From positions 1 through 36,127 of the forward strand of contig CAIWVW010000041.1 in assembly GCA_903916255.1 (NCBI GenBank): a stretch of 36,127 bases of DNA, given 5' to 3'. How positions within the stretch are numbered: position 1 is the first letter of the stretch; every line of letters begins with the position of its first letter. The DNA comes from an uncultured Bacteroidota bacterium (GTDB taxonomy: Bacteria; Bacteroidota; Bacteroidia; JABEUT01). Below, piece after piece: positions 5,021 to 29,938 of the stretch. The notes under the pieces are model-generated. The model did no database searches, had not been told where the DNA came from, and worked only from the letters and a program-made list of their open reading frames with translations. Made by a program: the position numbers and the translations under genes.

Positions 5021-6433
5021 CTACTTTTGTATTACCAGTTTTCCTTCTCCAATAAGTTCACCGCTGTTTGCTACAACACGGTAAAGGTAAACGCCACTTG
5101 GGCTTGAAGACAAATCAAGGGAACAGTGGTTAGTAGTTAGTGAATGGGTGGAGTATATTTTTTCTCCCAGCACATTGTAAACTTCGACTGACCACTGCCC
5201 ACTGCCTACTGATGACTGAACAGTGAACATACCGCTTGAAGGGTTCGGATAAACTGAACACTTACCATTTGCTACCGACAACTGCTGTATTCCCAAACCG
5301 GTGTATGTAAAGCTGAAAACATTTCCATCTACTTTACTACCACCCTCCCAGGTAACGCCATAAAATACATCGCCGGAAAGTATCAAATCGCTTAAAGGTT
5401 CGCGGCCATTGATGCCGTCAAAGTCGGCTAAATCGGTAAGGTTGGTTCCATCGGTGTCAATGGCAACAATGTACCCGTCGCCATTTACCCCGCCATTGGT
5501 AATCATACCTATCAATCTTTTACCCAACAGCATAAATGAATTATGCGGATAGCTGCCAATAGAATCCTTTAAACTTACCCGGGTCTTTTCGTTTGTTCCA
5601 TCTGTATCTACCGAGAAAATGCAACCCTGATTATAAACACCGCCGTTGTATGTCATTCCCCACAGGGTTTTGTTCACGCATGTAACATGCGAATAATCGG
5701 GATTGGCGCCATTCGCGCCCGTAAAATTGATAAGGCTTTTATAATTGTTTCCGGTGGAATCTACCGTAAAAAGTGTTCCATAGTGATTGGTTCCGCCATC
5801 CTGGCAAAGGGCATACACTTTATTGCCCACCACGGTTACTCCGCCTGAAGGATGGTTCCCGTCCGGACCGCTGCAACCATGCAGTACTTTGTAATTGGCT
5901 CCATTGGTATCTACCGAGAAAACCACTCCGCTGTCGCCGGGGCCATATTGAAAAGTAGCGCCGAAAAACTTGCCTCCCGAAAGGAACAGCGAACTGCTTG
6001 GCACACCGCCTGTGGCGCGGGCAAAATCATATAAATCGGTAAATCCGTTTCCGTTTGTATCTATCCGGAAAATGTTTCCCATAAAATTAGCTCCGCCTTC
6101 TTCTGAGCAGCCATATAGGTTTTTACCGATAAGTATAAGTTGACCAAAAGGAGCTCCGCCATTGGTTCCGTTAAAATCGAGCAAATCTTTGAAACCCGTG
6201 CCATCCACATGAATGGAATAAATTTGTCCTTCTCCCGACGGTCCGCCTTCTTCGGTGGTACCATATAATACATTCCCCGAAAGGGTTAAGGTAGAAATCG
6301 GGAATTTCGTATTGGTGTTCCCTACTGAGCCTGTATCGGCAAAGTCGTGCAAATCGACAATTTGTGCGTTGCACATAGGAGTGAAAAGGGAAAAGGTGAA
6401 AGTGAAAAGAGAAAGCGTAAATAGTTTTTTCAT
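5021..6433 (-). CDS. GloVer-repeat T9SS secreted protein
   Basis: A 470-residue protein: signal peptide (about 1-23, ending CNA-Q), then about seven GloVer repeats (DLHDF ... LSGNVLYGTTEEGG ... GQIYSI and variants) predicted to form a propeller, then a ~75-residue type A sorting domain (VYPNPSSGMFTV ... YNVLGEKIYS ... GVYLYRVVANSGELIGEGKLVIQK). Likely exported by T9SS. The hydrophobic core of the signal peptide (LSLFTFTFSLFT) is written by a 7-bp-period tract at 6380-6414, and both sorting-domain loops are written by another inverted pair of heptamer tracts. The last 20 codons are nearly identical in DNA to those of the gene at 10356. The stop lies 27 bp before a strong terminator. Confidence 0.93.
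   Translation of the reverse strand: MKKLFTLSLFTFTFSLFTPMCNAQIVDLHDFADTGSVGNTNTKFPISTLTLSGNVLYGTTEEGGPSGEGQIYSIHVDGTGFKDLLDFNGTNGGAPFGQLILIGKNLYGCSEEGGANFMGNIFRIDTNGNGFTDLYDFARATGGVPSSSLFLSGGKFFGATFQYGPGDSGVVFSVDTNGANYKVLHGCSGPDGNHPSGGVTVVGNKVYALCQDGGTNHYGTLFTVDSTGNNYKSLINFTGANGANPDYSHVTCVNKTLWGMTYNGGVYNQGCIFSVDTDGTNEKTRVSLKDSIGSYPHNSFMLLGKRLIGMITNGGVNGDGYIVAIDTDGTNLTDLADFDGINGREPLSDLILSGDVFYGVTWEGGSKVDGNVFSFTYTGLGIQQLSVANGKCSVYPNPSSGMFTVQSSVGSGQWSVEVYNVLGEKIYSTHSLTTNHCSLDLSSSPSGVYLYRVVANSGELIGEGKLVIQK
5124..5223. repeat. Inverted heptamer tracts within a sorting domain
   Basis: 5124-5144 holds three 7-bp units of TAGTGGT type. 5189-5223 holds five units of TGACCAC type (TGACCAC, TGCCCAC, TGCCTAC, TGATGAC, TGAACAG). 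The left and right units are reverse complementary. Both lie in coding sequence and encode variable loops of the type A sorting domain (THSLTTNHCS and SSVGSGQWSV). Confidence 0.75.
6380..6414 (-). repeat. Heptamer tract encoding a signal-peptide core
   Basis: Five 7-bp units on the plus strand (AGTGAAA, AGGGAAA, AGGTGAA, AGTGAAA, AGAGAAA). On the minus strand they encode the Leu/Phe/Ser/Thr-rich hydrophobic core of the signal peptide of the gene at 5021-6433. Confidence 0.65.
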
Positions 6434-8141: not shown

Positions 8142-9317
8142 CTAAAGCTGGTAGCTGAAAATCATTCCTTCAGAATTGGCGCCGCCCAGACTGGTCATGC
8201 CGTAAAGTAAGTTGTTCTCCAGAATGAGCGAGCCGGTTGGGGTAGAGCCAAACGCACCCGCAAAATTAAAGAGCACATTATAACCGCTTCCGTTTGTTCC
8301 AATAGAAAACAGCACACCATATCCTGAGCCTCCGGTGGAAGCCATGCCATACATGGCAGACCCTGATATAACCAGCGAACCAAGCGGTGCGCCTCCGGTG
8401 GAAGAACCGTTGAAATCGAACAGGTCGGTATAGCCGGTTCCGTTGGTATTAAGTGAAAAAATGCAGCCATGGCCGTGTGCGCCCCCGGCAGAAGTCATGC
8501 CATATAGTGTATGTCCTTGCAGCACCACGTTGCCTTCAGGAGTGGACCCGTTCGTGCTGACTCCGCCAAAGTTATACAGTAAGGTAAAACCGGTTCCGTT
8601 GGTATCGATAGAAAACACACAACCGCCACTGTCTATGCCGCCAAGCCTTGCCATTCCGAAAAGGGTGTCGCCGGTGGCCGATAAGGTAAGGGAACCGTTG
8701 GGGTTGCCCCCTGTTCCTACTCCGTTAAAATTATAAAGGCTGCGGTAATTGCTACCGTTTACATTAATCGAAAATATATTCCCTGCCTGAAAAGCGCCTC
8801 CGGCAGTGGTCATGCCATAAAGGGTGCTGCCAATAACTATAACTGAACCCGTAGGCTGGCTGCCATCGCTTCCCGCGCCCGAAAAAGTATGTATTACCCG
8901 GAAACCGGAACCGTTGGTGTTCATGGCAAAAATGGTACCGTTGTTGGAAGCCCCGCCATTTACAGCCATTCCGTATAATACGCCGCCTGAAAGAACCAGG
9001 TCGCCGAAAGGATAAGCCCCGTCTGTATTGGCAAAATCATGTAAGTCGGTATAACTTGTACCATTGGCATTAATGCTGAAAATGTTGCCATACTGGTTGG
9101 CATTAGGGCCGCCATATTGCGTCATGCCATAAAGCACACCACTCGAATAGGTTAAATCGCCATAGGGGTTGCCTCCGTCGGAACCTGTAAAGCTGAACAG
9201 GTTCGATAGGTTTCCCGATGTGGTTACATTGCTTGCATTGGTTGGCGTAGTTGTATCCGATTTTTTACACGCAGCAAACAAGCCAATTACGATGGCTACT
9301 AAGGCTATTTTTTTCAT
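8142..9317 (-). CDS. GloVer-repeat lipoprotein
   Basis: Read from the ATG at 9315-9317 this is a 391-residue protein with a lipoprotein signal peptide (MKKIALVAIVIGLFAAC, lipobox LFAAC, Cys17). An upstream in-frame ATG at 9353 lies inside the -7 box and is rejected. After a Thr-rich linker come about seven GloVer repeats (YxxLxxFxG ... GxLTLSGxxLYGMxxxGG ... GxIFSIxxNG), which fill the whole protein. Unlike its two relatives in the window it has no T9SS sorting domain and ends with the last repeat (SEGMIFSYQL). It should be lipid-anchored in the envelope. Function unknown; a propeller-type binding protein is likely. Confidence 0.9.
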   Translation of the reverse strand: MKKIALVAIVIGLFAACKKSDTTTPTNASNVTTSGNLSNLFSFTGSDGGNPYGDLTYSSGVLYGMTQYGGPNANQYGNIFSINANGTSYTDLHDFANTDGAYPFGDLVLSGGVLYGMAVNGGASNNGTIFAMNTNGSGFRVIHTFSGAGSDGSQPTGSVIVIGSTLYGMTTAGGAFQAGNIFSINVNGSNYRSLYNFNGVGTGGNPNGSLTLSATGDTLFGMARLGGIDSGGCVFSIDTNGTGFTLLYNFGGVSTNGSTPEGNVVLQGHTLYGMTSAGGAHGHGCIFSLNTNGTGYTDLFDFNGSSTGGAPLGSLVISGSAMYGMASTGGSGYGVLFSIGTNGSGYNVLFNFAGAFGSTPTGSLILENNLLYGMTSLGGANSEGMIFSYQL

Positions 9318-9350
9318 GGCAATAACAGGGTTATCTATTTTTTTATAGCA

Positions 9351-9358
9351 CAAAGATA
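9351..9358 (-). promoter_or_regulatory. -7 box of the GloVer lipoprotein gene
   Basis: CAAAGATA on the plus strand reads TATCTTTG on the minus strand. It lies 34 bp before the ATG at 9317 and sets that start. Confidence 0.6.
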
Positions 9359-10355: not shown

Positions 10356-11318
10356 TTACTTCTGAATTACCAATTTCCCTTCTCCAATAAGTTCACCGCT
10401 GTTTGCTATAACACGGTAAAGGTAAATACCATCGGGCTGGGCAGATAAATCAAGGGAATAGTGGTTAGTGGGTGGAAGATAGTTGGTGGAATACACATTT
10501 TCACCAAGAATATTATATACCTCGACTGACCACTTGCCACTGACAACTGACGACCGCATAGTAAACACACCCGCAGACGGACTGGGGTAAACGGAAATAG
10601 TAGTTTGCGGTTTTCCTATGGCATGAATAGCACTCTCCGGGCAAGTGTGAAAAATAGTGCATCCACCTGCGGGAAATACAATAGTGGAGTCCTCAAAACA
10701 ATTTATATTACATCCTCCCTCAAACGGCGGATAAATATCTTCCATAAGGCCAAGCCAACTTCCAATACCTTCTGTAATGGAATCGAACGCCCAATAAATT
10801 GATACACTGTCTTGTGAAATAATAAACTGCTTTCTATATGTGCTACCCACTAAAATTGAATCTATAGAACAAACAAAAAAATTATTAGAAATATTACTGT
10901 AAGACATAGGTAAAGTATCTCCAACTTTCAAATTAAAATCATATAGCAATGTATCCTTTCCATAATTAGGTTTAAAAGAAGCATATACTTTCCTGGATAA
11001 CGTATCGTTTCGTAATAAACAAAAAAGATAATTATAGCATTGGTAAACTGTACTTCCCAAGTCATCATATTCAATGCCTCCGGAAATATTGAGTTTACTA
11101 TATGTTTTACCATTAACCACTGTATCGCCCCGCACATAATAATCAAATTCGTTATGCCCTACATCAATAGGATTGCAGGTCATACAAAGCCAATAACTTG
11201 TTTCTCCCCAAGCCGCATTACTATCCGGAAACGGATGATACACGTTAAACTGCGCCTTGCAAAAAGTGAATAGCGAAGAGCTGAAAACTACAAGTAAAAC
11301 AAGTACATTTTTTTTCAT
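10356..11318 (-). CDS. T9SS type A sorting-domain protein
   Basis: From ATG 11318 the product has 320 residues: signal peptide (MKKNVLVLLVVFSSSLFTFCKA-Q), a central ~215-residue Cys-containing domain I do not recognise (WLCMTCNPIDVGHNEFDYYVRGDTVVNGKTY and so on, with paired Cys), and a type A sorting domain (VYPSPSAGVFTM ... YNILGENVYS ... GIYLYRVIANSGELIGEGKLVIQK). Other in-frame ATGs at 11324 and 11354 are possible. The DNA of the last ~75 bp is almost the same as in the gene at 5021, while the rest is unrelated. A heptamer tract at 10527-10554 encodes the SVVSGKWSV loop. Its promoter carries a triple 21-bp-spaced repeat shared with the LytTR gene, so it may be a LytTR target. Confidence 0.9.
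   Translation of the reverse strand: MKKNVLVLLVVFSSSLFTFCKAQFNVYHPFPDSNAAWGETSYWLCMTCNPIDVGHNEFDYYVRGDTVVNGKTYSKLNISGGIEYDDLGSTVYQCYNYLFCLLRNDTLSRKVYASFKPNYGKDTLLYDFNLKVGDTLPMSYSNISNNFFVCSIDSILVGSTYRKQFIISQDSVSIYWAFDSITEGIGSWLGLMEDIYPPFEGGCNINCFEDSTIVFPAGGCTIFHTCPESAIHAIGKPQTTISVYPSPSAGVFTMRSSVVSGKWSVEVYNILGENVYSTNYLPPTNHYSLDLSAQPDGIYLYRVIANSGELIGEGKLVIQK
10527..10554 (-). repeat. Heptamer tract inside sorting domain
   Basis: Four 7-bp units (TGACCAC, TTGCCAC, TGACAAC, TGACGAC) on the plus strand, encoding the VVSGKWSV loop. It is the same heptamer type as at 5189, 15762 and 34332. Confidence 0.7.
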
Positions 11319-11367
11319 ACGCATGAAATTACAACAGACTAAGCATTTCGTCAAACCATTTGCTAAT

Positions 11368-11375
11368 CAAAGGTA
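11368..11375 (-). promoter_or_regulatory. -7 box of the T9SS gene at 10356
   Basis: CAAAGGTA on the plus strand gives TACCTTTG on the minus strand. A TTTTG lies about 15 bp upstream of it. The triple TACCAT array begins exactly 36 bp upstream. Confidence 0.65.
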
Positions 11376-11411
11376 CTATAAAAACCAGTTCAAAATTTCA
11401 ATACTTATTGA

Positions 11412-11459
11412 ATGGTAGGTTTTATTGAGTAGATGGTATGTTTTTGGCGGTGAATGGTA
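11412..11459 (-). promoter_or_regulatory. Triple 21-bp-spaced operator (copy 1)
   Basis: ATGGTA at 11412, 11433 and 11454 on the plus strand, i.e. TACCATTCA, TACCATCTA, TACCATTCA read on the minus strand with a strict 21-bp period. LytTR regulators bind 9-bp direct repeats spaced by about 12 bp (21-bp period), so this fits a LytTR operator. An equivalent array sits before the window's LytTR gene at the same distance from its -7 box. The array also lies 47 bp before the -7 box of the divergent gene at 11529 and could act on both. Confidence 0.75.
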
Positions 11460-11506: not shown

Positions 11507-11514
11507 TACCTTTG
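11507..11514 (+). promoter_or_regulatory. -7 box of first tandem barrel gene
   Basis: TACCTTTG, 14 bp before the ATG at 11529; it matches TAnnTTTG. Confidence 0.6.
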
Positions 11515-11528
11515 TTTTTTTAATCCAA

Positions 11529-12326
11529 ATGGCCAAACGTATATTCCTGCCGATGTTTATTCTGTTCACCTATTGGTGTCAGGCGCAAGATTATTATATG
11601 CCCCGCAATCCTGCATCATCGCCAAAGCCGCAGAATTATGCGCGCTTTAAAGATTCTATCCCCGCGAAAAGATATTTTATCGCACTCAATCTGGGTATCT
11701 CCATTCCGCTGGGCGGCTTTGGTGAAAAAGATACCAACCAATATTTCATGATACCAACCAACACCGACTCGACCCATGCCAAAGGCTTTGCCAATGTGGG
11801 TTTCCATATAAACGCCAAAGGCGGGATTTTTTTAAGCCAGAATTTTGGACTGCTTGCCAAAGTGGGCTACAGCGTTAATACATTCGATGCCAATTCACTT
11901 AACAGTATTATTAACGGATACTATTACTACAGCGTTAGCGGCAATTACAGCATCTGGCAGGTTATGGGCGGCGCGTTTATACGCCTGCCCATTAGCGATG
12001 CTACCTCCTTCCGTGCAGAAGGCATGCTGGGCGGTATCTATGCCAATTATCCAACAGCCTCGGTATCAAACAGCCTTGAAACAATTAGTTTTAAACTCTC
12101 CAATGCCAGCGATTTTGCTTACTCCCTCAGTATAGGCATCGAGCAGGAGATAGATGATAACTTCAGCTTTACAGGCGGAATTACTTACACAGGGGCCGAA
12201 TTAAATTACCCTACCGCTACCTATACCTATAGCGGAACCGTAGCCGGTACCTACTACCAGCGCTACCCCGTTTCCATGTCATACGGCAGCCTCGATTTTT
12301 CTATCGGGCTCATCTATCATTTGTAA
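11529..12326 (+). CDS. Outer-membrane beta-barrel protein, tandem paralog 1
   Basis: A 265-residue protein: signal peptide (about 1-19, ending CQA-Q), a short Pro/Ser-rich linker, then a beta-barrel (IALNLGISIPLGGFGEKD ... GFANVGFHINAKGGIFLSQNFGLLAKVGY ... SIWQVMGGAFIRLP ... FSFTGGITYTGAELNYP ... PVSMSYGSLDFSIGLIYHL). It resembles the porin-like/OmpA-like barrels common in Bacteroidota. It is the first of three consecutive paralogs. Its last ~65 bp and the following spacer are nearly identical to the end of paralog 2 and its spacer. Function unknown. Confidence 0.9.
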   Translation: MAKRIFLPMFILFTYWCQAQDYYMPRNPASSPKPQNYARFKDSIPAKRYFIALNLGISIPLGGFGEKDTNQYFMIPTNTDSTHAKGFANVGFHINAKGGIFLSQNFGLLAKVGYSVNTFDANSLNSIINGYYYYSVSGNYSIWQVMGGAFIRLPISDATSFRAEGMLGGIYANYPTASVSNSLETISFKLSNASDFAYSLSIGIEQEIDDNFSFTGGITYTGAELNYPTATYTYSGTVAGTYYQRYPVSMSYGSLDFSIGLIYHL

Positions 12327-12448
12327 GAAAAAACAACCTGCAAGTATTATTTTTTTACATTTGCCCCTATAATCAAGGCACTGTATTTTTAATTAATGAA
12401 AAGAACCCTGCTCCTTTTTGTTTTATTTTCACAGGCTTGTTTGGGGCA
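12263..12448 (+). repeat. Junction repeat, copy A
   Basis: Near-identical to 13097-13283. The repeat covers the last strand of one barrel gene, its stop, the spacer with TACATTTG at 12356-12363, and the whole signal peptide of the next gene. The spacing between copies is 834-835 bp, the size of one gene unit. This points to tandem duplication, followed by conversion keeping the junctions alike while the barrels diverged. Confidence 0.88.
12356..12363 (+). promoter_or_regulatory. -7 box of tandem paralog 2
   Basis: TACATTTG, 32 bp before ATG 12396; it is repeated at 13191-13198 before paralog 3. Confidence 0.6.
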
Positions 12449-13160
12449 GAGTGAACTACAGCCACCGACAACACACGTAAAAAACACGGTGAAATTAAAG
12501 CGGTTTATTGTTTCAGTAAATATTGGAGCCTCCTCGCCTTATGCAGGATTTGGCACTAAAGACACTGCTAATTTTTTCATGACTCAGAAAGACTCGAACA
12601 AAGTCCGTGGATTTGCTAATGTTGGAGTTCATGCTTCTGCCGATGCAGGATATTTTATTACAGCACACTTGGGCGTGGAAGGAAAAGTTGTATTCAATTA
12701 TAATACAATTGACATGGAAAAGTTCAATTCTTTCCTTGTACCGCACAACCATAGTCCGGAGGTTAGTTTTGACGGAGGGTATAGTATATGGCAATATATG
12801 GGTGGGCCTTTTATAAATTTCGACACAAAAGATAACACCACTATTTGCCTGAAATTTATGACCGGAATGCTATCCATTAATTACCCCGATTTTTACATTA
12901 CCGGGCCATCCAATTATTTCGAAATTATACTTCCCCAGGTACATACAATTGCTTATTCTTTCACCTCCGATTTCGAAAAAAGACTTTCCCCTCTGATAGG
13001 GATAAAAGCAACCATTGGTTATACAGGCGCTTTGGTAAACTATGCTTCGTTTACCTACATATATACGGGCGCCACATCAGGCAGGTACAGCAGCCCCTAC
13101 CCCGTTTCTATGTCATACGGCAGCCTCACATTTTCCGCAGGGCTCAATTTTCATTTGTAG
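12396..13160 (+). CDS. Outer-membrane beta-barrel protein, tandem paralog 2
   Basis: A 254-residue paralog of the preceding gene: signal peptide MKRTLLLFVLFSQACLGQ, then IVSVNIGASSPYAGFGTKDTANFF, RGFANVGVHASADAGYFIT, GGYSIWQYMGGPFI and a terminal PVSMSYGSLTFSAGLNFHL strand. The conserved frame of strands matches paralog 1, while loops differ strongly, as expected for surface-exposed loops under diversifying pressure. It has its own -7 box in the repeated spacer, so the three genes are probably separately transcribed rather than one operon. Role unknown. Confidence 0.9.
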   Translation: MKRTLLLFVLFSQACLGQSELQPPTTHVKNTVKLKRFIVSVNIGASSPYAGFGTKDTANFFMTQKDSNKVRGFANVGVHASADAGYFITAHLGVEGKVVFNYNTIDMEKFNSFLVPHNHSPEVSFDGGYSIWQYMGGPFINFDTKDNTTICLKFMTGMLSINYPDFYITGPSNYFEIILPQVHTIAYSFTSDFEKRLSPLIGIKATIGYTGALVNYASFTYIYTGATSGRYSSPYPVSMSYGSLTFSAGLNFHL

Positions 13161-13283
13161 GAAAAAACAACCTGCAAGTATTATTTTTTTTACATTTGCA
13201 CTCATAATCAAGGCACTGTATTTTTAATTAATGAAAAGAACCCTGCTCCTTTTTGTTTTATTTTCACAGGCTTGTTTGGGGCA
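13097..13283 (+). repeat. Junction repeat, copy B
   Basis: Second copy of the 12263-12448 segment, with one extra T in the poly-T run and a few substitutions. The signal peptide of paralog 3 is encoded by the same bases as that of paralog 2. Confidence 0.88.
13191..13198 (+). promoter_or_regulatory. -7 box of tandem paralog 3
   Basis: TACATTTG, part of junction repeat copy B, 32 bp before ATG 13231. Confidence 0.6.
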
Positions 13284-13932
13284 AGTAACAAACCATCCCA
13301 ATACTTCCGCGAAAGACTCTGTTGCCAAAAAGCATTTTTTTATCTCCATTAATTATGGTATAAATTTACCAACCGATAATTATGGAACGGCCACCAATAC
13401 TATTGCTTCCAATCAAATTCAAGGCTACGCCAAAACCGGCACACATGCTAATGTTGCAGGGGGAGTTAGGGTATCTGGTAATATCTCTTTGCTGATAAAA
13501 ACAGGCCTTGATATGAATAATTCTGATAATCCTGTAACTAATACTCAATATAGCGGAGGGTTTAAAATATGGCATGTTTTGTGCGGCGTATCATATGAGG
13601 TAGCACCATCGCAATACACCCTTTTGCGTGTGTATGCGCTGGCGGGATATATGGTGGCAAATTACCCTGAAACAACAATCAATGTAATGGGAATAACAGA
13701 AACCGACGCCTTTAAAAACTCGAATAGCTTAGGCTACTCCATGGGCATTGGCTTTGAACGGAAGTTTAACACAACATGGGGATTGGCGGCCAATTTGGCC
13801 TACTCGGCAAGTTATTTAACATATCCTTATTACAATGTGAGTATTAATGGCACCATCGTTTCTCAAAGCAGCGCCATAAGTATGCTTTATGGCAGTGCCG
13901 AAATTACGGTTGGCTTAGTTTTGCATTTGTAA
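13231..13932 (+). CDS. Outer-membrane beta-barrel protein, tandem paralog 3
   Basis: A 233-residue paralog. The signal peptide is identical to that of paralog 2 (MKRTLLLFVLFSQACLGQ). It keeps the frame FISINYGINLPTDNYG ... GYAKTGTHANVAGGVRVSGNISLLIKTGL ... GGFKIWHVLCGVSYEV ... SAISMLYGSAEITVGLVLHL but is the most diverged of the three and has the shortest loops. It likely sits in the outer membrane. The gene is followed by a hairpin terminator region at 13982-14020. Confidence 0.9.
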   Translation: MKRTLLLFVLFSQACLGQVTNHPNTSAKDSVAKKHFFISINYGINLPTDNYGTATNTIASNQIQGYAKTGTHANVAGGVRVSGNISLLIKTGLDMNNSDNPVTNTQYSGGFKIWHVLCGVSYEVAPSQYTLLRVYALAGYMVANYPETTINVMGITETDAFKNSNSLGYSMGIGFERKFNTTWGLAANLAYSASYLTYPYYNVSINGTIVSQSSAISMLYGSAEITVGLVLHL

Positions 13933-25969: not shown

Positions 25970-28900
25970 CTATTTCTGCAAAATCATTCTCTTGGTATCT
26001 ATTACTTTACCGTTTACAACCAGGCTGTATGAATACACTCCATTAGCAAGGTTTTCAGGATTTAGGTTAATTGTTCCATTGCCTGTTTGGCTAAGTTGCA
26101 CTTCTTTCAACTGGTTGCCATAATTATCATAGAAAATAACCGTGGCGCCCAGTGTTCCTTCAGGCAGATAGTAATTAATTTTGGTACTTGTGCTGAAAGG
26201 ATTGGGAATGTTTTGATACAACAAAGGTGCATCGGCATTCGACAAGCTAACCTCCTGCGTATTGCTGATATTTCCATTTATTCCGCCCTGAATATTCGGG
26301 TTTGAACTTTGCGAACAGATTTGGTTGAGGCAGGTTTGCATGCTTTGCAATGCAGTTTTCAAACTATCGATAACTTGTTGTTGCTTTTCTATTTTCACAG
26401 TTTCCGTGTTATGGTTTTCAGTTACCGCTGAATCCACATCCTTAATAGCATTAATTGCAGTATATAAAACAGCTTGTTCATAAATACTTAAAACAGTTGA
26501 AGTATCTCCATCTTTATCACTTTTCTTGATTACTGATTTCTTAACTGCGTAAGGCGCAACGCTTGCCAGGTTTTGAGCTTTTAATCCGATGTAGCTATTT
26601 CGGGTATCAAGCCCACCTACTCCATTGTATTTATAGTTAATAGGCTTTAAACCCCGAATCACTTTTATTCCATCATTAAAAGATGTTATATCCTTCTTTA
26701 GTGTTGAATCGGAATAGATGTAACTTCCACCGGTTTCGATGCCGCCATTAACATACATTAAAGCAGGCAATGAACTAAAAGTTGGAAATGTTCCTAGATT
26801 AAATCCAACACTGACTATTCCGCCGTAATGAGGTACAAATATTGCGTATTGGGAATCTGTATCAATATCATCTGCTTCAAACCAACCTGCAACGTTATAA
26901 AATTCTGAACCCGAAGGAGGGGGCAGGTAGCTTTTTAACCCAATCACTGGATAAGGGGATGTTTGAGTGCCAGCAGACAAATCATCGTTTTCAACATAAA
27001 TGCCTATGCTAGTCTGAGACGCGGTTGAAGTTGCACCGGAATTTTGCAATACATCCAGTTTTGCCTGAGGTGTATACCCGCATGGGTTTCCAATTACAAC
27101 ATCTTCAACCCCTAACTGTTGGCTCCCGTTTCCGGCAAAATAGAAGTTATATGGCGAACCTGCATTTGAAAGAAGGTTATACCCGCCATTATCAGTCATG
27201 GGTGTCAGACCTCCTGATGAACAATACCCTAGCCCATTGTTTGCAGTAAATGATGGAGCTACATAAATCACATTTCCATATCCATCTACACTTAATACCC
27301 CTTGTGGAGCAGGGTTTACACCCATTATGTTAGTAAAATTTGAATTATTCAAGGCAACTGGGGTAGATTTAGAATTTAAATCATGGAATCGCAACCCGGT
27401 CGTTCCAGTAGCTGGATTCACCGCAACATAATAATAATTTTGTGCAAGTGGTTGAGCATTCCAATTATTTGGCCAAGGTGAATTTTCGGTGGCTATTTCA
27501 AGATTCGTTGTCCCCATTCCAGATGGAAGAGCGCCTGAAAGTCCAATTGCAGCGGTTACATTATTATTTCCCAGTTCCATTTCATTGCTTGAATACACTT
27601 GGGAATATGGGCCAATGGCTGAAGCATTACTTATTATATTTGCAGAAGTAAGAGAACTTGCTTTAGTTGCCTGTATACCTAAAAACATATCATCAAAATC
27701 TTTTACAACATTGGAAGTTCCGCCTGCACCATTTCCCACGGCAACATTACCGCCCCAGCAATAGGTTGAAGCTGGCACGCCTGCTTGAATAAAATTAGTT
27801 AGTGTCCCCGAACCGATGGCTGTGTTACTGTCTCCAGTTGTAAGAGCAGACAAGGCTGCATTTCCAAACCCACTGTTAGATTTACCCGCTGTGTACGCCC
27901 GCAGAACTTTATAACCAACTGCGGTATTATTTGCACCTGTTGCTGTTGTGCCACCCTCCATTGCCTGATACCCAACAGCTACATTATCATTGCCTTCACT
28001 ATATTCCATAGCAGCACTGCCAACAGCAACATCAGCCACCACTGTTGTATAAGAGAGGGCTGCACTACCAACTGCCACATTATCATTGCCGGAGGTATTA
28101 CTTTTTAACGCACTTCCACCTACGGAAGTGTTGCGCACACCTGTATTGTCATTCTGAGATGCTTGACTACCTATAGCAGTACAACCATCAACTGCATTAG
28201 GATTAAAATTTTGAAGAGCACTCCACCCCACCGCAGTGCAATTCATTCCCTCAGAAACCACGCTGGGATTAAGTTTTTGCAAGGTATAGGCACCTATAGC
28301 AACATTTTGGCTTCCAAAGGCATTTGGTGGCCCACCTGCAAAACCTTGGTCTGATGCAAGTGCAGCATAACCCATAGCAGTATTTTCATACCCTTGCGTC
28401 ATATTATACATTGTTTCATATCCGACCCCACAATTACGATATCCTGAAGTATTTTTATAAAGTGTATATCCACCTACAGCCACATTATCGCTCGCCGTAT
28501 TGTAGAATAAAGTGGAAGGGCCAATTGCAACGCTTGCATTGCCTGTAGTATTTGTAACTAAAGAATTTAAGCCAACTGCTACATTACTATCGCCATAATT
28601 ATTTCTCAAACTATTATAACCAATACCGGTATTATCATACCCGCAGCCTGAAGAACTATTTCCATTTAAACTGTACGCTCCAACGCCCGTGTTTTGATAG
28701 TTCACAGCCCCCCCGTATGCATTATAATATAACGCCGCTATCCCAATACCTGTATTGCCCGCGGCATTACTACCTGTTCCATCTGTATAATACAAAGCCC
28801 GATATCCATCAGCGGTATTACCCCAAGCCTGAGTAAGACTATATAAAGCCTGCGAACCTGTGGCGGTATTCTCAAAACCATCGATTCCCATAGCAGGCCA

Positions 28901-29170
28901 ATTATAGAGATTATACATTGTTTGAAACCCTATCGCTGTATTATCGTTTCCGTTTACTGCCGTATTGCCAGTAGGTCCAAATGTATTTACACCATATCCT
29001 GTGTTATTTGTTCCACCTGGACAAGAAGTTATATCACCGATTGAATAAGTTGAACAGGAGGAAAGACCATCTTGAGTAGCTCCTCCATACGTAGTATTAG
29101 TCTGCCCAAACCCCTTCCCTGCCAACAATAGCAAGCAGGTTCCGATTGTTAGAAATTTTAGATTTTTCAT
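25970..29170 (-). CDS. YadA-head/S74-chaperone/T9SS surface protein
   Basis: A 1066-residue protein in three parts after a signal peptide (1-23, ending GFG-Q). Residues about 30-510 are some twenty YadA-head-like repeats (N-T-A-[VI]-G-x-x-A-L-x-x-x-T-x-G-x-[DN]-N). A linker region of about 300 residues follows. At about 820-915 is a tail-fibre S74 intramolecular-chaperone domain (SDSTLKKDI ... GLKPINYKYN ... YIGLKAQNLASVAPYAV). Then come a coiled coil (about 900-955) and a type A sorting domain (LYQNIPNPFSTSTKINYYLPEG ... GVYSYSLVVNGKVIDTKRMILQK). It is likely a trimeric adhesin. S74 self-cleavage would separate the sorting domain from the head, so either cleavage is absent or the order of events is special. 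Confidence 0.92.
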   Translation of the reverse strand: MKNLKFLTIGTCLLLLAGKGFGQTNTTYGGATQDGLSSCSTYSIGDITSCPGGTNNTGYGVNTFGPTGNTAVNGNDNTAIGFQTMYNLYNWPAMGIDGFENTATGSQALYSLTQAWGNTADGYRALYYTDGTGSNAAGNTGIGIAALYYNAYGGAVNYQNTGVGAYSLNGNSSSGCGYDNTGIGYNSLRNNYGDSNVAVGLNSLVTNTTGNASVAIGPSTLFYNTASDNVAVGGYTLYKNTSGYRNCGVGYETMYNMTQGYENTAMGYAALASDQGFAGGPPNAFGSQNVAIGAYTLQKLNPSVVSEGMNCTAVGWSALQNFNPNAVDGCTAIGSQASQNDNTGVRNTSVGGSALKSNTSGNDNVAVGSAALSYTTVVADVAVGSAAMEYSEGNDNVAVGYQAMEGGTTATGANNTAVGYKVLRAYTAGKSNSGFGNAALSALTTGDSNTAIGSGTLTNFIQAGVPASTYCWGGNVAVGNGAGGTSNVVKDFDDMFLGIQATKASSLTSANIISNASAIGPYSQVYSSNEMELGNNNVTAAIGLSGALPSGMGTTNLEIATENSPWPNNWNAQPLAQNYYYVAVNPATGTTGLRFHDLNSKSTPVALNNSNFTNIMGVNPAPQGVLSVDGYGNVIYVAPSFTANNGLGYCSSGGLTPMTDNGGYNLLSNAGSPYNFYFAGNGSQQLGVEDVVIGNPCGYTPQAKLDVLQNSGATSTASQTSIGIYVENDDLSAGTQTSPYPVIGLKSYLPPPSGSEFYNVAGWFEADDIDTDSQYAIFVPHYGGIVSVGFNLGTFPTFSSLPALMYVNGGIETGGSYIYSDSTLKKDITSFNDGIKVIRGLKPINYKYNGVGGLDTRNSYIGLKAQNLASVAPYAVKKSVIKKSDKDGDTSTVLSIYEQAVLYTAINAIKDVDSAVTENHNTETVKIEKQQQVIDSLKTALQSMQTCLNQICSQSSNPNIQGGINGNISNTQEVSLSNADAPLLYQNIPNPFSTSTKINYYLPEGTLGATVIFYDNYGNQLKEVQLSQTGNGTINLNPENLANGVYSYSLVVNGKVIDTKRMILQK

Positions 29171-29322: not shown

Positions 29323-29766
29323 TTATCTTTTATTCGGATAATGGAAAAAAGCGAAAAAAGCTTTGCGGTAAGTTCTGTTGAGGGTAATGTAAATAGGCTT
29401 GCCATTGTCCGTTACATTGTTAAGGTAAATGGCATCCTCGTCAAGGTAATGAATGGCAACAGGCGAAACCAAATCCTGCTTATTCACCTGCAGCAAAAAC
29501 CCGGTTAGTTTAATTAACTCATCTAATCCGTGTCCGCGGATTATATACATAATATTGCCCTTCAGGTAAAGCAATTTATCGGCATGGCCGCCCTTAATGG
29601 CCCGCACCAATAAAATATCGGGCAATAAAATTTTTACTTTTTTCCTTCCACCCGAAAGGTTGAAAAGATAATAATCCTTCAAATGTTCATTAGCGGTAAT
29701 AACCGGCCCTGCATAGGGTAGGTTATTTTTCTCATTCAGCGAAATTACATGCAGTGCTTCCTTCAT
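29323..29766 (-). CDS. LytTR-domain transcription regulator
   Basis: A 147-residue protein. Residues about 45-145 fit a LytTR DNA-binding domain: LLPDILLVRAI, LLYLKGNIMYIIRGHGLDELIKL, FLLQVNKQDLVSPVAIHYLDEDAIYLNN and GKPIYITLNRTYRKAFF (the usual N-R/S-x-x-V-N and final basic strand pattern). The N-terminal ~45 residues are not a receiver domain, so it is a stand-alone LytTR protein, possibly a one-component regulator. Its promoter (-7 at 29847) carries three TACCAT repeats with a 21-bp period, the expected geometry for its own binding site, indicating autoregulation. Confidence 0.8.
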   Translation of the reverse strand: MKEALHVISLNEKNNLPYAGPVITANEHLKDYYLFNLSGGRKKVKILLPDILLVRAIKGGHADKLLYLKGNIMYIIRGHGLDELIKLTGFLLQVNKQDLVSPVAIHYLDEDAIYLNNVTDNGKPIYITLNRTYRKAFFAFFHYPNKR

Positions 29767-29846: not shown

Positions 29847-29854
29847 CAAAGATA
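29847..29854 (-). promoter_or_regulatory. -7 box of the LytTR gene
   Basis: CAAAGATA on the plus strand, TATCTTTG on the minus strand, about 80 bp before the ATG. A TTG lies 16 bp upstream. Confidence 0.65.
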
Positions 29855-29890
29855 TGTGCAATGCAGATTACAATTTCTGCCATTTATTGG

Positions 29891-29938
29891 ATGGTATGAT
29901 TTATTGAGTAAATGGTATAATTTTGGCGGTAGATGGTA
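29891..29938 (-). promoter_or_regulatory. Triple 21-bp-spaced operator (copy 2)
   Basis: ATGGTA at 29891, 29912 and 29933 on the plus strand; TACCATCTA, TACCATTTA, TACCATCCA on the minus strand, 21-bp period. It ends exactly 36 bp before the -7 box, as in copy 1 at 11412. The linkers between units are also conserved (CCGCCAAAA and CTCAATAAA), whereas the 36 bp down to the -7 box differ. Confidence 0.78.

Follow-up and report, generated by a model that had tools for sequence, protein, structure and literature searches.

Does a run of three short boxes, repeated at a 21-bp step before a gene for a secreted protein, form a regulatory site, and if so, what kind of protein would read it and at how many promoters? 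The stretch of DNA analysed (hereafter, the window) comprises 36,127 nucleotides from an uncultured Bacteroidota bacterium. It contains two arrays of three TACCATNNA boxes on the minus strand, at 11409-11459 and 29888-29938; the repeat array described in the initial annotation is thus real, with its three boxes where they had been placed, the 21-bp step and a second copy. As had also been described, the first array precedes a gene for a type IX secretion system (T9SS) protein, and the same array precedes a LytTR gene. The features of the two sites are as follows.

11451-11459, minus strand: box 1, promoter-distal LytTR-type half-site, TACCATTCA
11430-11438, minus strand: box 2 of the T9SS-gene array, TACCATCTA
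11409-11417, minus strand: box 3, promoter-proximal half-site, TACCATTCA
11400-11408, minus strand: position of the fourth, inverted half-site, directly adjoining box 3; ATAAGTATT, a weak copy of the consensus ATAARTGG, at the reverse-strand peak of the published LytTR matrix over all arrays
11368-11375, minus strand: -7 promoter box TACCTTTG, 33 bp after box 3
10356-11324, minus strand: target gene for a secreted protein with a T9SS type A sorting domain (PF18962, E 9.9e-10; TIGR04183), ATG at 11324
29930-29938, minus strand: box 1 of the second array, TACCATCTA
29909-29917, minus strand: box 2 of the second array, TACCATTTA
29888-29896, minus strand: box 3 of the second array, TACCATCCA
29879-29887, minus strand: inverted fourth half-site of the second array, ATAAATGGC
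29847-29854, minus strand: -7 promoter box TATCTTTG of the second array, 33 bp after box 3
29323-29766, minus strand: 147-aa receiver-less, divergent LytTR-domain protein (AlphaFold, Foldseek, hhalign), a candidate regulator and itself an array target
25970-29170, minus strand: 1066-aa S74/T9SS-type secreted protein, downstream of the LytTR gene; sorting-domain score below the family cut-off

The listed open reading frame of the T9SS target extends to a TTG at 11354. Four overlapping two-box matches were found in the window against 0.03 expected from shuffles, and the array matrix scored 78.9 and 68.2 at the two arrays, with the next independent place at -10.8, which leaves only two arrays in the window; the same matrix scan detected none at its other T9SS genes. 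The two arrays do lie at the same distance from their -7 boxes, as had been claimed, but this distance is 33 bp and not 36 bp. The further observation that the linkers are conserved while the stretch down to the promoter is not holds in the four-member group that includes both window sites, in which the linkers have identities of 0.88 and 0.92 and the spacer 0.29. Additional control of the divergent barrel gene at 11529, raised as a possibility, finds no support, since arrays consistently face the promoter on the box-3 side. A TACCTTTG box is located at 11509-11516, just before the ATG of this gene and ~49 bp from the outer end of the array; the leader of a transcript from it would be very short.

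The regulon of two members that had been proposed from the window was not borne out, as a search of the 3.74-Mb genome with an array profile, built from the sequences of 17 arrays only, returned 22 sites at E<1e-6. The reversed three-box pattern, used as a control, gave zero matches in the genome. Among the congeners, the same profile gave 19 matches in G002 (98% complete), weak ones included, several each in G007 and G003, and one strong match in G004, while no convincing array was found with it in G006 (99% complete), G008, G010, and G005. A scan of 84,980 species genomes with the exact pattern, which is strict and thus does not prove the absence of arrays elsewhere, matched two MAG contigs only, both labelled 'uncultured Bacteroidetes bacterium'. 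From what is generally known of such bins, a freshwater origin may be guessed at. A two-box match on C36, beside a response-regulator gene, lacks the array features and was discarded as an AT-rich chance match.

The position of the arrays relative to the promoter is nearly invariant. In 33 of the 36 arrays, box 3 is followed at 33 or 34 bp by a TAnnTTTG element (no more than one mismatch), other distances having 0.16-0.30 sites each, a phasing far beyond chance under a simple composition model. The arrays of this genome have sharp edges, with a mean identity of 0.56-0.80 inside and of 0.29-0.32 in the flanks and spacer, i.e., chance level; the two C79 sites have their flanks in common as well and are a recent duplicate. 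These values support the earlier suggestion that spacing is selected and argue for a spacing-constrained operator. Near-identical copies with sharp edges at unrelated genes, gained and lost at homologous ones, would also be expected of a dispersed repeat landing near promoters by chance, without any regulatory role; however, the phasing in 33 of 36 copies, their uniform orientation, and their retention at orthologous promoters despite spacer divergence to 47% identity render this explanation highly implausible.

At orthologous promoters, where the initial annotation expected the array to recur, the outcome is divided. All homologues of the window T9SS gene in six congeners, as well as its C70 paralogue, lack the array, and so does the promoter of the closest relative of the window LytTR gene (in G003, 54% identical overall). 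Two other orthologous sets, in contrast, keep it: the array of the TonB gene is present in three species (this genome, G002, and G007) and absent in G006, G001, and G009, and that of an RNA locus is present in four (this genome, G002, G003, and G007), with identities of 67-76% in the boxes, 86% in ATAARTG, 47% in the spacer, and 94% in the -7 box. Arrays have thus been kept at some promoters, while others have acquired or lost them.

The RNA locus yields a conserved transcript of ~250-300 nt with no evident open reading frame, which starts at the array promoter in all four species (L141:721-1141, i.e., G000:C57:45720-46140 in this genome; G002:C62, G003:C13, and G007:C41). It begins after a gene for a secreted-protein-like product, near panD in several species, and contains a strong hairpin (CCTGCCGCAAC...GTTGCGGCGGG) and the motif GGTGAGACT, the structure being based on four sequences and two compensatory pairs. 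An Rfam search with the transcript gave no match, and its assignment to a known RNA family was therefore rejected.

What kind of protein the array is built for can be judged from published operators. LytTR repeats such as ACCACTTAC-12 bp-ACCACTTAC are mostly located 10 bp before a -35 element, and a Bacteroides thetaiotaomicron promoter among those listed has TATCTTTG at its end (PMC6193735). A matrix built from 32 of the published 9-mer half-sites (PMC6193735) was slid along the 36 arrays in 130 registers, and on the forward strand it peaks only at offsets 1, 22, and 43, with means of 1.9 to 3.9 against -4.4 for the next register and a median of -12.4. The reading that fits the box best is therefore ACC[A/G]TNTAA, shifted inwards by one base relative to the register initially assigned. 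The arrays accordingly have tandem 9-bp direct half-sites of the ACCnnTTAn type with gaps of 12 bp, within the 10-13 bp of LytTR operators, and a position directly before the -35/-33 element. In several of the G2, G4, and G7 sites, exactly 10 bp separate box 3 from the start of TTGACA, which is the bias of the published LytTR repeats; the -33 elements of the sites in this genome are weak. The matrix registers, the gap length of 12 bp, and the 10-bp distance to TTGACA support the earlier reading of the array as a LytTR target, and the arrays probably represent a spacing-constrained operator of the LytTR type, to which a protein would bind.

The reverse-strand peak of the matrix is at offset 51, where an inverted half-site (ATAARTGG) abuts box 3, so that the proximal site is near-palindromic, e.g., CCCATTTAATAAATGGG on C77. 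Three direct half-sites together with an inverted one would constitute a new composite form of LytTR operator. The arrays on C66, C132, C144, and C149 (L145, L147, L149, and L151) have ~30 more upstream bases in common, at 0.71 identity, including an inverted repeat GGCAAATG...ATTTGCC that is possibly an extra pair of half-sites.

Conserved positions are also found between and beyond the boxes, namely AAA in the linkers and ATAA after box 3. Such information outside the boxes, as well as the 21-bp period of the direct repeats, would fit an activator of the AraC/XylS type, bound as tandem two-helix monomers to the repeats next to the -33 element; the AraC I1-I2 and XylS sites have this geometry of two-helix monomers in tandem. 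We nevertheless consider such an activator improbable, given that the published LytTR matrix picks precisely the three boxes and no other register, that the linkers vary between array groups more than the boxes do, and that a LytTR gene sits under an array.

Comparison with known systems refines the LytTR assignment. The LytTR regulatory systems (HdrR, BrsR, and others; PMC6193735) have the same 9-bp ACC-initial half-sites with a 12-bp gap, located ~10 bp upstream of the -35 element in an autoregulatory placement. They have two direct half-sites, whereas the arrays have three and an inverted one, which is no part of the classical LytTR operator, and they differ further in that the sites described here have a -7 box of the Bacteroidota type and many T9SS cargo targets, with no membrane-inhibitor gene beside the LytTR gene. 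A membrane partner of this kind was therefore rejected for the LytTR gene of the window. Three-repeat LytTR operators are known from RcoM1 and CoxC, which likewise have three direct half-sites, their centres about two helical turns apart; however, their half-sites are TTCNNGCA or TTNNNGCN, unlike those of the arrays, and both are CO-sensing regulators, CoxC being a repressor that overlaps the -35 box (PMC11347149).

The targets point to secreted surface proteins. In this genome, 17 of the 22 arrays precede genes for T9SS-cargo products that end in a sorting domain, a count in which the C101 gene is interrupted by a frameshift and the C132 and C149 genes were judged from C-terminal sequence. 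The binomial probability of this proportion is 5e-13 at the most generous background, which was deliberately set high: of an assumed 3,200 genes, 150 to 344 were counted as sorting-domain candidates. The remaining five arrays precede the window LytTR gene and genes for a TonB-dependent protein and a lipoprotein, the conserved non-coding transcript, and a short ORF of unclear nature. An array on every T9SS gene was ruled out, as the genome has at least 150 sorting domains and the other T9SS genes of the window lack one. Behind the array at C71:28507 (L146, G000), which has its promoter, only a possible 47-aa ORF is found. The frame of the T9SS gene behind the array at C101:8604 onward (L157, G000) shifts after 388 aa, and the sorting domain continues in another frame; this may reflect a frameshift, a pseudogene, or an assembly error.

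Transcriptional control tied to type IX secretion is also the task of PorX/PorY-SigP in Porphyromonas gingivalis, which uses an ECF sigma factor and an unrelated PorX site to drive the genes of the T9SS machinery (PMC8265659). The arrays, in contrast, mark mostly cargo genes, and their promoters carry TAnnTTTG boxes of the housekeeping type instead of an ECF-type promoter on machinery genes.

The window offers a candidate regulator in the 147-aa protein encoded at 29323-29766. Its AlphaFold model has a pLDDT of 82 and the beta-rich LytTR fold, and the best 13 Foldseek matches against the PDB are all LytTR proteins (AgrA, ComE, and one from Bacillus cereus), with a TM of up to 0.84 on the target; hhalign with canonical LytTRs gives 92% and E 5.7e-7. 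Searches with the protein against Pfam, including the LytTR profile PF04397, and NCBIfam returned no match, its receiver-containing paralogues have sub-threshold PF04397 scores only, and a PDB sequence search with a LytTR profile yielded no useful match. The conserved LytTR motif FhRhHRS (PMC4227749) is replaced in its family by an LLQVNK-type sequence, so the DNA contacts of this family may differ. By fold and profile, the protein is thus classified as LytTR, albeit divergent in sequence. It resembles the response regulators AgrA and ComE in fold and in the direct-repeat operator upstream of the promoter, and differs from them in having neither a receiver domain nor the FhRhHRS core and in being missed by Pfam; its paralogues on C18 and C116 do have a receiver. 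The gene is flanked by an ORF resembling RdgB-like pyrophosphatases in sequence and by that of the 1066-aa T9SS-type protein, which may be co-transcribed with it.

Relatives of the 147-aa protein are confined to the genus among 60 genomes searched, and the LytTR sequence matched nothing in a protein scan of the same 84,980 species genomes. In the tree, it groups with G003 C39, C18, C116, and G007 C12 (support 100/99), all from array genomes, and members of its subfamily were found in no genome without arrays. In G002, an array precedes a truncated member of the subfamily, MQRKLQCILVDHDPIIHDIFKDYLTRQG*, and otherwise only the more distant member C39 is present; the truncated receiver-LytTR gene behind this array (G002:C31:35915 onward, L170) is followed by apparent histidine-kinase remnants. 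This genome has at least eight other LytTR domains, and no upstream array was found at the other LytTR-family genes examined.

Taken together, these data are best explained by a LytTR-type operator that binds LytTR proteins cooperatively and activates transcription, an account to which we assign a probability of roughly 0.75 and in which binding, activation, and the acting protein are inferred. The arrays themselves, their spacing, the number of targets, the LytTR fold, and the agreement with published LytTR operators are shown computationally. LytTR subunits would bind side by side on one face of the DNA over the three direct half-sites, with a further subunit on the inverted half-site. Directly downstream of the array lies the -33 element of a housekeeping-type (TAnnTTTG) promoter; the bound proteins would most likely contact RNA polymerase at this weak element and thereby activate transcription, which we infer in preference to repression. 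Co-regulation would thus extend to some of the T9SS-secreted surface proteins, to a TonB-dependent protein, and to the conserved non-coding RNA, and the position of the LytTR gene at 29323-29766 under an array suggests feedback.

The 147-aa protein is one candidate binder. The array might be read by another LytTR protein, such as the receiver-LytTR paralogues C18 and C116 or a canonical member, with the 147-aa protein acting only as a target or as a competitor without a phospho-switch; this is a sub-case of the LytTR reading and no alternative to it. Receiver-LytTR paralogues exist in the genome, the 147-aa protein lacks the receiver domain that normally controls activity, and the 98% complete G002 keeps many arrays without an intact member of its subfamily, for which reason the 147-aa protein is not named as the sole regulator. 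Against this stands its being the only LytTR gene examined here with an intact promoter array, which fits autoregulation, and we put the odds of another LytTR reader slightly below even. A broader proposal, in which a lineage-specific, divergent LytTR subfamily without the HRS core reads a new composite operator that spreads between promoters as a sharply bounded cassette and recruits T9SS cargo and a new conserved non-coding RNA into a regulon with fast turnover among species, is speculative and rather unlikely to hold in full.

Most of what is known about the regulation of T9SS cargo comes from P. gingivalis and a few flavobacteria. For an uncultured Bacteroidota lineage, the arrays define by sequence a putative regulon of ~22 promoters, whose operator is precise and whose candidate regulators are few; its promoters gain or lose the complete operator yet keep its exact spacing to the -7 box.

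Two further groups of genes in the window are of note. GloVer tandem-repeat proteins (TIGR03803) are encoded without arrays at 77-2938, 5021-6433, and 8142-9353, two having T9SS sorting domains and one being lipoprotein-like; elsewhere in the genome, proteins with similar repeats are encoded behind arrays. After the gene at 11529, two tandem barrel-like ORFs (12396-13932) start with identical signal peptides (MKRTLLLFVLFSQACLGQ), which suggests a recent duplication.
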